This document shows, in pieces, positions 7,205 to 52,969 of a stretch of DNA of 64,000 bases. Where the stretch lies: the NCBI GenBank assembly GCA_907165065.1, contig OU015525.1, forward strand, positions 3,538,622-3,602,621, written 5' to 3'. Numbering within the stretch: the first letter of the stretch is position 1; each line of letters begins with the position of its first letter. Position numbers and translations under genes: made by a program. Under the pieces are notes generated by a model. It was not told the origin of the DNA. It made no database searches and saw only the letters and a list, made by a program, of their open reading frames with translations. The stretch comes from Caprimulgus europaeus (Eukaryota > Chordata > Aves > Caprimulgiformes > Caprimulgidae).

Positions 7205-8916
7205 TACAAAAAAACCCTACCCATCAAAAAAACCTCTATCACAAAATGTGTGGACTGGTCCTCTCAGCACATGCAATTGGAAAATTAGCCAAGCTGAAGC
7301 CATGTCCTGCCCACCCATCCTCCTGTATCATTAACCCAGAGCGTGTCAGCACACTGAAAATCCAAGAAAAACTTCCCAAAACTGGGGTCAGATCTAGAAA
7401 TCTTGTCCTGTGCTGCTGTTTTGGCAGTGATTTATTGAAAGCTGGATCTTGTTAGTAACAACTGAAATTCCTGGGGGATGGATAAGTCCAAGCTAATTTC
7501 TTGTATTACATTGCCTCATATTTAAAGCAAAGAAAAGGAGTGTCCAGGACAGTTGATTTAGGAGGAACTGCAGGAAAATAAGTGTGGGAAAATCTCTAGC
7601 AATGAGCCCCTGTGCGTTTGGATTAAACAACATTTAATGCCCTGGATTTGTGTTAACCTGACAAACTGATCCAGGACTTTATTTACAGCTGGTAGAGGGA
7701 TAAATCATCTCACGTGAATGCTGCTGTGGGTAAGATGTGTGAGAGGTAGTGGAAAATGCCCTGATCATACTGTTTGGATGTGGAGCTTGTCCTCAAGCAC
7801 TAGGAGATGCATCCTCAGCACCAATCTGAGCAGTGCATCAAGCAGGCTTCTCGTTTTATTCAAGATTCATAGGTTTCACCTTGTTCCATTGTTGACTTTC
7901 TGCTCTTCCAAAGGCAGAATGGGCACATGGTGTTTTAACTTAGGGAAATCTTGTTAAGGGATGCAGAATATGTCATCATTACAATTTGCTGACTTGAAAA
8001 TATGAATCATAGCTCCTGTTTGAGTTTCTGTAATGCTTCAGCTTGCTAATAGCAGTGGCTGATTGAATGTCCTGTAGCATGTTGAGTGAACAAGCCCTGC
8101 AGTGTTTTTGGACTTGACCAAAGTTTCAGATAAGAGAAGCTTCTGGGAAACCTGCAAAAGCTGATCCAGATGGGAAGCAGAATAGGGCTACACCATGGGA
8201 AAATCTGCTGTAAAGTTACTGCCAGAAAGCTGGTGCCAAAGACAGGTATAAATGAATGTTTTTCTGGTGACTATTACCATTCAAAAACCCAACAACTGTT
8301 TGCTTCATGTTGTTCCTTCTCTGGGGATGATGAAGCTGTGGAGAAGCTCAGGATAGTTTCAGGGTTTTTAAAGTTGGCAAATAAAGCCAACAAAAATAAC
8401 CTTCCCTACAAAACCCCAAAATGCCAAACATTCAAACCCTCACTTGAGTGTTCTCCTTGTAGGGCAGATTTGGGTGCCTTGGCCAAAGTGGGACCTTGGG
8501 AATGAAGCTGAGAGCAGTTGTCTGGGCAATGGCAATAGCAATTCCTGGCACTGACTCTTTGACCCTTGCAGTCGGGCCATCAGGAAGAAATAGCAGGAAG
8601 TGGAGCCTCTCTTGAGGGCTGGAAGATTTATGTGGTGGAGAACCCACTGGGGTCCCACCTCCTGCCCCAAAAACTTTGAGCCTACAGAGCAATTGCACTC
8701 TGCTCACTGCTCCCTCACCATTTCTGAAGGCAGGACCTGCTCATGTGACCTCCTGCTCTGGAAAGCAATGGTTAACCATGCTGGTGTGTTTGTGGTTTAT
8801 CATTCATTTATGGCTCTGACATTCCCAATTTATAAATGAGTAGAAGTAATTTATATTCCAATCGCTAATGATTCTTACAAATGCTGTCTCCATCCGTGTG
8901 GGTGGTATCTGCTGTG
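7205..8916. other. unrecognised intronic sequence
   Basis: I recognise no gene or repeat in this 1.7 kb. Open frames here (for example 8170-8505 on the + strand) are short and carry no family motif. Confidence 0.5.
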
Positions 8917-9114
8917 ATGCCTAGTGTCAGGACAAAAGGCAATGGGCAAAAACTGGACCACCAGAAGTTCCAGACAAACTTTAAGGGTGTTGAAGCACTG
9001 GAATAAGCTACCCGGAGAAGTTGTGGAGTCTCCATCTCTGGAGATGTTCAAAACCTGCCTGGATGCAGTCCTGTGCAACCTGCTGTAGGGAACCTGCTTT
9101 GGCAAGGGGGACTG

Positions 9115-9122
9115 GACTAGAT
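9115..9122. repeat. hAT target site duplication, left copy
   Basis: GACTAGAT immediately before the left terminal inverted repeat. It is identical to 10529-10536 and derives from the CR1 3' end consensus GGACTAGATGA. Confidence 0.93.
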
Positions 9123-9413
9123 CAGGGGTCCTCAAACTTTTTAAACAGGGGACTGGTTCACTGTCCCTCAGACACTGTTGGGGGCTGGACTATAGTTTGG
9201 AAAAAAATGAACGAATTCCTACGCACACTGCACATATTTTATTTGTGCACAAAAAACAGGAAAAAGAATGCAATATTTAAAATGAAGAACAACTGTAATC
9301 AACAAAAACAAATAATATTTCAATGTGAACTATGGGCCTGCTTTTGGCTAATGAGATGGTCAATGTTAGGTTCCATATTTGTCACTGCTAGTCGTAGCAA
9401 GTGGTGCAAGTGC

Positions 9414-9785
9414 TCATGTTCTGTTAATGAGCAGGTCTAATTTGAGTTGAAATGCTTTCACATGTGAATACATATCACAGATGAGCTTCCCCTTTCCTTG
9501 AAGTTGGACATTGAAATTGTTGAGTAGCTCTGTTACATCTGTCAGAAACGCAAGGTGCCATTTCCATTCTGCATCTTTGAGCTCTGGTACTTCTTTGTTT
9601 TCAGAAAGCATAAAATCATAAACCTGTGGAAGTCAGTCATAAAATCATTTCAAAACTCTCCTTTGACTCAGCCAATGGACTTCTGTGTGGTACAGAATAT
9701 CTTTATAGGCAACATTTGGCTCAGACAGAAATTCCTGAAACTGTCTGTGGTTTTGTGCATGAGCTTTAATGAAGTTAGAGAAATA
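9414..9785 (-). pseudogene. hAT transposase later fragment
   Basis: Directly after the BED piece the minus strand reads 'NFIKAHAQNHRQFQEFLSE', 'LYHTEVHWLSQRRVLK', then 'VPELKDAEWKWHLAFLTDVT' and 'LLNNFNVQLQGKGKLICDMY'. These are typical of the RNase-H-fold half of Charlie-type hAT transposases, the group related to the GTF2IRD2 transposase-derived part. The several hundred residues that normally separate them from the BED finger are absent, so an internal deletion joined the two. In-frame stops occur at 9645-9647, 9633-9635 and 9414. The C-terminal hAT dimerisation region is not seen. Confidence 0.8.
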
Positions 9786-9981
9786 TCATATGAAGGAATC
9801 ATATTTATCTTTATGATGAGTTTCGTAGTGTTGATGCAAATTGTATTCCTTGAACACAGACACTGAATTCTGGCATATCAGACAAACAGCTCTTTCTTTG
9901 TACGCTGTGAAAAAATAATCAGAAGTCCACTTTTCTTGGAATATCCTGCACTTGGAGTCGATTTGTCTTTTTTTTTGACAT
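9786..9981 (-). pseudogene. hAT transposase N-terminal BED zinc-finger fragment
   Basis: On the minus strand the frame reads about 60 residues starting with a Lys/Arg-rich stretch, then 'CRIFQEKWTSDYFF', 'AVCLICQNSVSVFKEYNLHQ' and 'HYETHHKDKYDSF'. The Cys-x2-Cys followed by His-rich 'HQHYETHH' is a BED-type zinc finger, used by hAT transposases to bind DNA. The natural ATG at 9979-9981 is out of frame with this finger because of the 9-base A-run (9968-9976 on the + strand). The frame stops at TGA, 9786-9788, exactly where the downstream piece begins. Confidence 0.85.
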
Positions 9982-9997
9982 GATGGTGCACGCTTTC

Positions 9998-10528
9998 CAC
10001 TGGTGCTAGCTTGCTTGTCCTGCCTGGGAGCTGGAGGGAGGGAGGGAGAGATGGGGGAATCGCCCACCTTGCTGATGCCACCACCCTCCTCCTCAGCCCA
10101 GCCACGCAGTCCGGAAAGGGTGGCCGAGGCTGTGGCGATTCGCCCAAGTTGGCTGGATCTTGCAGTCCAGAGGTTGCTGACTGAGATTGCCTGGCAGAGG
10201 AGATGCCCGCACCTCTCGTCCGCCGTGCATCGTGGAGGAGGAGGAGGAGGGCGGGGTGGCAGTGGTGCGGTTTGTTGCCAAGAGGCACCCCCTAGGGGGG
10301 ACAGGTTGAAGACGAGGTGCTGGTTGCAGCCCAGTCCCAGCAGGTGCTTGGGGGCTGCAGAGCCAGGAGCACGGATTAAGTGGCAGGACGTCATCTGTGG
10401 CTGCTTGGTTTCCACCCACAACCCCCGGCGGGGGGGGGTCTTCGGGGAGTTCTGTAAATACCGATGGGCCGGATTGAGGACCCTGGGGGGCCGTATCCGG
10501 TCTGCGGGCTGTAGTTTGAGAACCCCTG
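9998..10528 (-). promoter_or_regulatory. GC-rich 5' region of the hAT element
   Basis: This part of the transposon is markedly GC- and CpG-rich compared with the AT-rich intron around it, with G runs near 10228-10262 and 10427-10436. In transposon orientation it lies between the 5' terminal repeat and the transposase start, where a promoter is expected. Promoter activity is inference only. The long frames crossing it on both strands (+ 10003-10587, - up to 10664) run through the terminal repeat into CR1 and are not proteins. Confidence 0.45.
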
Positions 10529-10536
10529 GACTAGAT
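10529..10536. repeat. hAT target site duplication, right copy
   Basis: GACTAGAT immediately after the right terminal inverted repeat; a perfect match to the left copy. Confidence 0.93.
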
Positions 10537-10792
10537 GATCTCCTGAGGTCCCTTCCAACCCCTACAATTCTGTGTGATTCTGTGTGATGCATCAGCGTCT
10601 TTTCTGTCCTGACGGTGTTGTGATGGGTCTTTGCTTGTCCAGTGCAAATTATGTGATCAGACACTGTGTATGGCTACATCAGACCACCTACTTGGGCTAA
10701 ATTTCTGCAGTGAGGAGCAACCTGCATCCCAGTTCAAAAGATCACCTGGGAGGTGAGCACCTTTCAGAGTGATTGGTGGTCTTTGTTATTAA

Positions 10793-11002
<210 letters not shown>

Positions 11003-18483: not shown

Positions 18484-18553
18484 TGACCTCTCTGGAAAGA
18501 AGCCTTCGATCTCTGGGAACCTCAAATGATACTCAGGAGCTGCAGGATGGACT
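18484..18553 (+). CDS. TSNARE1: TSNARE1 exon (Habc first helix, continued)
   Basis: A 70-nt exon flanked by CTGTTGACAG and GTGAGT. Joined to the exon ending at 10898 it completes a valine codon and reads VTSLERSLRSLGT, then SNDTQELQDGL. It ends after two bases (CT) of a leucine codon. The 'LxxxLxxLGTxxD' spacing is typical of the first Habc helix in syntaxin 7/12-like proteins, and the exact words match TSNARE1. The following exon should supply one base and then continue the helix; I did not find it in the remaining 45 kb. Confidence 0.88.
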
Positions 18554-27339: not shown

Positions 27340-27573
27340 AACCACAGAACGGTAGGGGTTGGGAGGGACCTCAGGAGATCATCTAGTCCAACCCCCCTGC
27401 CAAATCAGGTTCACCAAGAGCAAGTTGCACAGGACTGCACATCCAGGTGGGTTTGGAATATCTCCAGAGAAGGAGACTCCATAACTTCTCTGGGCAGCCT
27501 TTTCCAGTGCTCTGGCACCCTCATAGTAAAGTTTTTCCTCATTTTCAGATGAAACTTCCTGTGATTTTTTTTC
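27340..27573 (-). mobile_element. CR1 LINE, 3' fragment, antisense
   Basis: Reverse CR1 3' end with ACCTCAGGAGATCATCTAGT, the subfamily that also hosts the hAT element at 8917-10588. It covers the 3' end and last codons only ('TSRW' to 'REGDSIT' in the shadow strand). Confidence 0.9.
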
Positions 27574-51515: not shown

Positions 51516-52969
51516 TCACAGAATCACAGAATCACAGAATAGTAGGGATTGGAAGGGACCTCGAAAGATCATCTAGTCCAATCCCCCTGCTGGAGCAGGA
51601 ACACCTAGATGAGTTCGCACAGGAAGGCGTCCAGGCGGGTCTTGAATGTCTCCAGAGAAGGAGACTCCACAACCTCCCTGGGCAGCCTGTTCCAGTGCTC
51701 TGTCACCCTTACTGTAAAGAAGTTCTTCCTCAAATTTAAGCGGAACCTCCTGTGTTCCAGCTTACACCCATTGCCCCTTGTCCTATCATTGGTCATCACT
51801 GCAAAGAGCCTGGCCCCATCCTCCTGACACTCACCATTCAAATATTTATAAACATTAATCAGGTCCCCCCTCAGCCTCCTCTTCTCCAAGCTAAAGAGCC
51901 CCAGCTCCCTCAGCCTTTCCTCATAAGGGAGATGTTCCACTCCCTTAATCATTTTGGTGGCTCTGTGCTGGACTCTCTCCAGCAGCTCCCTGTCCTTCTT
52001 GAACTGTGGGGCCCAGAACTGGACACAATATTCCAGATGTGGCCTCACCAGGGCAGAGTAAAGGGGAAGAAGAACCTCTCTTGACCTACTGACTACACCC
52101 CTTCTAATGCACCCCAGGATGCCATTGGCCTTCCTGGCCACAAGGGCACAGTGCTGGCTCATGGTCATCCTGCTGTCCACCAGGACTCCCAGATCCCTTT
52201 CCCCTTCACTGCTCTCTAGGAGATCATTTCCTAACCTATACTGGAACCTGGGATTGTTCCTGCCCAGGTGCAACACCCTACACTTGCCCTTATTATATTT
52301 CATCAAGTTTTTCCCTGCCCAGCTCTCCAGCCTGTCCAGGTCTCTCTGGATGGCAGCACAGCCTTCTGGAGTGTCAGCCACTCCTCCCAGCTTGGTATCA
52401 TCAGCAAACTTGCTGACAGTGCACTCAATTCCCTCATCCAGGTCATTTATGAATATATTGAATAATACTGGTCCTAGTACTGACCCCTGAGGGACTCCAC
52501 TAGACACAGGTCTCCAACTCGACTCCGCCCCATTGACCACTACTCTCTGGCTTCTTCCCACCAGCCAGTTAATAATCCATCTCACTACCTGCTCATCTAA
52601 TCCGCACTTCCTCAATTTATCAGCGAGGATGCTGTGGGAGACCGTGTCAAATGCTTTGCTGAAATCAAGATAGACCACATCCACTGCTCTACCATCATCC
52701 AGCCACCTGGTCATGTTTTCATAGAAGTCTAGAAGGTTGGTCAAGCACGACTTCCCCTTGATGAAGCCGTGCTGACTGCCCCTAATGACCCTCTTATCCT
52801 TGATATGCCTAGAGATGGCACCTAGGATAAGTCGTTCCATCACCTTTCCAGGGATGGAGGTGAGGCTGACCGGTCTGTAGTTACCCGGGTCCTCCTTCTT
52901 GCCCCTTTTGAAGATTGGAGTGACATTTGCCTTCCTCCAGTCCTCAGGCACCTCACCCGTTCCCCGTTT
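51516..52969 (-). mobile_element. CR1 LINE, longest copy, RT open
   Basis: About 1.45 kb of CR1 on the minus strand. The + strand begins with three reverse tail units (TCACAGAATCACAGAATCAC). The 3' untranslated part is about 90 bp, then comes the open ORF2 end. The 5' truncation lies near 52969, just upstream of the RT start, so the endonuclease domain is gone. It has no frame-breaking change and is probably the youngest CR1 here. Confidence 0.96.
51605..52960 (-). CDS. CR1 ORF2 fragment: reverse transcriptase to C-terminus
   Basis: 452 uninterrupted codons including the TAG stop. There is no true start: upstream the frame reads 'TGEVPEDW' and is cut by the 5' truncation. Counting from the V of 'VPEDW', motifs in order are 'VTPIFKRG' (10-17), 'NYRPVSL' (24-30), 'YLDFSKAFD' (94-102, catalytic Asp 96), '[11 protein letters not shown]' (151-161) and 'KFADDTK' (181-187, catalytic Asp 184 and 185). 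After these come the conserved CR1 stretch '[19 protein letters not shown]' and the C-terminal '[20 protein letters not shown]'. Full CR1 ORF2 also has an N-terminal endonuclease, absent here. This is transposon protein, not a host gene, and lies antisense in a TSNARE1 intron. Confidence 0.93.

Follow-up and report, generated by a model that had tools for sequence, protein, structure and literature searches.

Our analysis of a 64,000-nucleotide stretch of the genome of the bird Caprimulgus europaeus (GenBank assembly GCA_907165065.1, contig OU015525.1, positions 3,538,622 to 3,602,621 of the forward strand; hereafter the window, with positions counted from its first letter) indicates that positions 9123-10528 hold the remains of a Charlie-type hAT DNA transposon, dead and with internal deletions, and that it belongs to a young family of the bird, which probably entered horizontally and then multiplied in a burst. 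We assign this reading a probability of about 0.85. Young DNA-transposon bursts are rare in birds. Six bird genomes are reported to hold 0-11 full-length DNA transposons each (PMC8310711), and of 975 transfer events among vertebrates, mammals and birds together figure in less than 3% (PMC7070016). A recent hAT burst, sister to copies in the kestrel, would offer a datable case of element entry, and copies on W-like, autosomal and Z-like contigs would provide a natural clock for sex-biased mutation.

Structure of the insertion

The element is 1,406 bp long and nested in a CR1 repeat. Its terminal inverted repeats (TIRs), at 9123-9138 and 10513-10528, pair at 15 of 16 positions, and it is flanked by target-site duplications (TSDs) identical at 8/8 positions, GACTAGAT at 9115-9122 and again at 10529-10536. 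Nowhere else in the 64-kb window did we find a pair combining an 8-bp direct repeat with inverted ends matching at 15/16 or better at a spacing of 100-5000 bp, and 30 block shuffles of the window gave 0 such pairs in total. When the insert and one TSD are removed, the junction aligns without a break to the two best CR1 paralogs within the window, at 27343-27527 (84%) and 51525-51711 (80%); overlapping matches show the same. An earlier note on this stretch had described the 16-bp inverted termini with one mismatch, the perfect 8-bp duplication and a CR1 3' end made whole by excision, and all three hold up, the duplicated pair being unique in its quality in the window and its coordinates exact. 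Of the CR1 and the hAT within it, the hAT is the younger, as the note had said.

The coding strand of the element is the minus strand, and what it carries is a remnant of a hAT transposase, interrupted by in-frame stops and by two large deletions. Relative to the majority sequence of the family (see below), the window copy lacks 434 bases at 9416/9417, 708 bases at 9783/9784 and 29 bases at 10125/10126. The zinc finger N-terminus and the middle of the transposase lie in one frame and the C-terminal tail in another, and the start codon, ATG at 9981, is followed by a one-base shift within an A-run. With the catalytic residues located by alignment to P0001, a gene model of the kestrel Falco tinnunculus, and by the known layout of hAT transposases, the two large gaps take out both catalytic Asp candidates, the catalytic Glu and the greater part of the dimerisation region. 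The window copy is not autonomous, a feature that the earlier note had missed. Because the leader at 9982-10512 is present in other copies, and because a similar stretch is translated in a kestrel gene model (P0049, where the resemblance is 68% over 37 amino acids, aa), this leader can be assigned to the element. Its G+C content is 71% and its CpG observed/expected ratio 0.75, the open reading frame (ORF) having 40% and 0.41; it may represent a promoter of the element's own or captured host sequence. The features are as follows.

8914..9122, plus strand: host CR1 portion 5' of the insert
9115..9122, no strand: left TSD GACTAGAT (from the sequence, the empty-site alignment and the family target preference nnnTAnnn)
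9123..9138, plus strand: left 16-bp TIR, at the 3' end of the transposase gene
9323..9406, minus strand: C-terminal tail of the transposase, in another frame than the middle part; 96% match to kestrel P0049 across 25 aa
9416..9417, no strand: deletion junction, 434 bases; the catalytic Glu is lost, as is most of the dimerisation region
9420..9782, minus strand: transposase middle part, 89% identity to kestrel P0001, two in-frame TGA stops
9783..9784, no strand: deletion junction, 708 bases, with both catalytic Asp candidates lost
9789..9981, minus strand: transposase N-terminus, start codon at 9981, frame shifted by one base in the A-run, with SPIN-DOC-type zinc finger PF18658
9982..10512, minus strand: G+C-rich 5' leader, found in family copies and partly in the kestrel gene model, 29-base gap at 10125/10126
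10513..10528, minus strand: right 16-bp TIR, at the 5' end of the transposase gene
10529..10536, no strand: right TSD GACTAGAT (from the sequence and the empty-site alignment)
10529..10584, plus strand: host CR1 3' end beyond the insert

The element is best read as a Charlie-type (GTF2IRD2-like) hAT. In both the window copy and the majority sequence the TIRs are short and begin with CAG, as in the hAT superfamily. The best fold matches of P0001 are to Hermes, over residues 143-586; the folds are alike although sequence identity is only 14-16%, and the window copy keeps only parts of this fold. The hATC dimerisation domain PF05699 scores 19.1 bits in P0001, under the cut-off of 21.4, and its region is deleted in the window copy. 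A search of PDB by sequence gave no match. Among known systems, the GTF2IRD2-like hATs misannotated in fish, reptiles and amphibians, together with hAT-6_XT, resemble our element in annotation style, in having a hAT transposase, 8-bp duplications and ends of ~15 bp, and apparently in a patchy host range, read there as horizontal transfer (PMC10641963, PMC11008031). For hAT-6_XT, reported missing from birds after a screen, with membership set at identity of at least 75% over at least 90% of the element (PMC11008031), the likeness is one of description. Entries named GTF2IRD2 outside mammals are often hAT transposons, according to an analysis that excluded birds; Charlie8, fused into mammalian GTF2IRD2, is likewise of the Charlie kind by description, but it is ancient and domesticated (PMC10641963). 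Charlie and Charlie-Galluhop of the chicken, again alike by description, are Charlie-type cut-and-paste elements of a bird (PMC4992247). The letters of the TIRs, looked for in the literature, gave no match, and none of the top-ranked literature matches described a young hAT family in any bird, falcons included; the excerpts of the Vertebrate Genomes Project (VGP) preprint PMC13320880 and of PMC3942097 make no mention of the present family.

The family in the genome and its age

We searched the assembly (1,177,730,439 bases in 121 contigs, with the window at C3:3538622-3602621) with the window element. Contigs C1-C35 run by falling size, followed by C36 (22.5 Mb, W-like), C37 (82.6 Mb, Z-like) and then small contigs, with C38-C121 sampled only. 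The search returned 424 first-look candidates, of which 40 were scored, and 148 listed matches. Besides the window copy, 39 copies were examined, a sample that favours long copies scoring well against the window element. A single-copy match, the outcome that the earlier note had set against its own expectation of a family in the same genome, did not occur.

Both ends could be located in 35/39 copies, one of which, L014, has a misplaced right end. The TSDs of these 35 agree at 8/8 positions in 23 and with at most one mismatch in 28, and 23 of the 35 reach at least 2,370 bp (22/34 without L014). The target site has T at position 4 in 25/29 copies and A at position 5 in 29/29 (nnnTAnnn), a preference that Arensburger in 2011 reportedly ascribed to the Buster/Charlie group of hATs. 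The 40 rows yield a majority sequence of 2,512 bp, whose TIRs pair at 16/16 positions and whose uninterrupted frame of 600 codons shows 96.6% identity to kestrel P0001 over 591 aa. None of the 40 rows, by comparison, is free of stops and frameshifts over at least 595 codons.

The suggestion in the earlier note that internally deleted siblings exist stood in part: shorter copies do carry internal deletions, but these are unlike those of the window copy, 23 of the 35 two-ended copies are near full length, and neither the 434- nor the 708-base deletion is present in any of the 39 copies examined. That the window copy belongs to an amplified deletion derivative is unsupported by these alignments, in a sample favouring long copies. 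Nor is there a strong case for CR1 as a preferred target, CR1-like flanks being seen in 4/35 copies. Two copies on C36, L009 and L010, lie 0.22 Mb apart and have a common left flank and internal deletion; the right flank of L009 is different and its TSDs are unlike. We read this pair as a probable segmental duplication followed by rearrangement or by recombination between elements.

Outside CpG, 36 well-aligned other copies differ from the majority sequence by 1.4-3.8%, and their tree is star-like. From this tree we excluded L030 (5.5% via its leader) and L043 (right end not found, 32%); both, along with L011, were also left out of the distance means. An apparent divergence of 8.7% for L011 was rejected: its 5' end is missing and flank had been aligned instead, while its coding part differs like that of other copies. 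The mean non-CpG distance is 2.7% on autosomes, 1.6% on the W-like contig and 3.5% on the Z-like contig. Family copies decay about neutrally, and these three distances are compatible with one neutral burst, very roughly 10-15 million years (My) old. The low distances and the star-like tree bear out the claim of a young family, the window copy itself being at 4.7%, about 1.8 times the autosomal mean. An age taken from proteins only (19 of 202 residues private to the window copy) is superseded, at least Q312 of these residues being common to the family.

C36, which makes up ~2% of the genome, holds 6 of the 39 copies examined (L009, L010, L014, L032, L033 and L034). These are among the least diverged, at 1.4-1.8%, as is L039 on C5 at 1.7%. 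The W seems to be both enriched in this hAT family and the slowest to mutate.

How could such a family have arisen? A full-length member of ~2.5 kb would have entered an ancestor of this bird horizontally, and its transposase would have bound the ends, excised the element and inserted it at TA-centred 8-bp targets, in a burst of the age given above that probably left hundreds of copies. If its deletions preceded insertion, the window copy could have moved only with transposase provided in trans; the alternative is that they arose after insertion. This copy would now be decaying, and we see no sign of host function.

Transposase relatives and route of entry

Among proteins, P0001 matches the window remnant best, and P0049 ranks lower, being partial; both are UniRef gene models from the kestrel and sister to the sequences of this bird, and P0049 holds the leader-like stretch. 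Since no DNA-transposon ORFs are reported, in the excerpt of PMC9214253, for eight falcon genomes that include the common kestrel (with repeat families of fewer than 20 copies filtered out), P0001 may be a model fitted around defects. The window and the kestrel proteins group together in both transposase trees (32 and 27 sequences), with support of 100/99 and 100/100. This bird clade is nested among frogs, a salamander, a turtle, a snake, a gecko, bats, marsupials and a freshwater mussel, in an order that contradicts host relationships. Among the best 120 of 638 matches to P0001, the highest identities over 95% of the length are 84-86% for frog, turtle, axolotl and gecko and 81% for bat and marsupial; the best identities across the clade span 81-88%. 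Because the transposase trees conflict with the host tree, and because the transposase is more alike to that of frogs than are exons of the host gene TSNARE1 (73-78%), even though the element decays neutrally, horizontal transfer is the best explanation of the trees. Of the two origins offered in the earlier note, lineage-specific or horizontally acquired, the second is the reading that we favour.

Several points weigh against a recent horizontal entry followed by a burst. The trees contain 31 proteins chosen out of 148 found, plus the window. In the first of them Zootoca, a lizard on a long branch, groups with the birds at 98/98, and the second omits it together with Engystomops, Uroleucon, Cyprinus and Sceloporus. 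Falco is the sole bird among the named rows in the best 120 matches, bird annotation being uneven. Turtles show no excess, with the transposase at 87% and the TSNARE1 exons at 90-92%; with caecilian exons at 88%, the transposase excess is clear versus frogs only. On the side of the family, 384 of the 424 candidates are unscored, so that the copy number is provisional, and the dating uses assumed mutation rates. Contigs C36 and C37 are identified as W and Z by inference only, and the window copy may predate the main burst or lie in a fast-mutating region.

Did the element enter birds once or twice? At residue 312, Q is found in 37/39 rows of this genome, the other two having stop codons, and at residue 542, V is found in 33/37, with I in 2 and L in 2. 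Both kestrel proteins have at these two sites the residues of all 11 outgroup rows, and they have C279R and V360 in common. In total, the two kestrel proteins jointly depart from the majority sequence at 6 of 520 positions, of which two are variable within this genome, and P0001 matches the 39 copies at 93% at best, over part of the protein (among the 14 rows listed). These alignments speak against the common kestrel as the source of this genome; the two birds carry sister masters differing at few sites. At position 279, where the kestrel has R, a cysteine is found in 90% or more of 32 rows and in 35/36 rows of this genome that can be read there. A defective master moved in trans may be the origin of the kestrel copies.

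We hold it possible, if doubtful, that a near-identical master entered the lineages of this bird and of the kestrel independently, and not once through a shared ancestor. The prevalence here of Q312 and V542 versus outgroup residues in the kestrel, and the kestrel-only C279R and V360, speak for separate entries. Falco karyotypes, at 2n of 50-52, have fewer chromosomes than the 35 size-ordered contigs before C36 and C37 would suggest for this bird, and we count this on the same side. Yet the comparison covers only two kestrel proteins, and the bird sequences are each other's closest kin. In its widest form, which we put forward equally tentatively, a near-identical GTF2IRD2-like hAT master would have entered at least two bird lineages, that of the kestrel and that of this bird, in separate and recent events. 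Its source would be a common pool from which frogs, salamanders, turtles, geckos, bats, marsupials and a freshwater mussel were invaded as well, and here it would have burst to probably hundreds of copies, the W included.

It is considerably less probable that the element is an ancient Charlie-type hAT inherited vertically since the amniote ancestor, with the window copy an old relic. In its favour, chicken DNA transposons all go back to either Charlie or mariner (PMC4992247), and the window copy, at 4.7%, is more diverged than the others. However, the 36 copies at 1.4-3.8% and their star-like tree argue otherwise, and near-neutral decay would not preserve a protein identity of 85-88% to frogs over hundreds of My.

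Within the tetrapod transposase clade lies P0003, from the freshwater mussel Sinanodonta woodiana, on a short branch of 0.031; its sister is the environmental sequence P0004, from an unnamed ENA contig, at 0.0034. A vertebrate-mollusc transfer is a possible interpretation of this placement. As for a viral vehicle, one scan of viral contigs with P0001 yielded 2 pattern matches, neither of them a relative.

The host locus

The element is intronic in TSNARE1 and antisense to it, and it ends 292 bp ahead of an exon.

10821..10898, plus strand: TSNARE1 exon downstream of the insert, listed as context; its matches show that the host is a bird
18484..18553, plus strand: next TSNARE1 exon, listed as context

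The exons were first matched with the human protein and then confirmed by protein matches. Of 107 exon matches, 33 are 100% identical over the full query and 33/33 of these are avian, in agreement with the bird genome assumed in the earlier note. Identity is 98% to chicken, 94-96% to some birds and 96% to crocodile, with turtles, caecilian and frogs as given above. The position of the insert, antisense and 292 bp before the exon, could suggest that the host made a TSNARE1 exon, an enhancer or a trap from the element or its transposase remnant, but with two large deletions, stops and a frameshift, and with more divergence than its siblings, the window copy makes this highly improbable. Across the window (1-64000), self-similar and mostly CR1-like repeats cover 16.7% of the sequence, and CpG observed/expected is 0.12.
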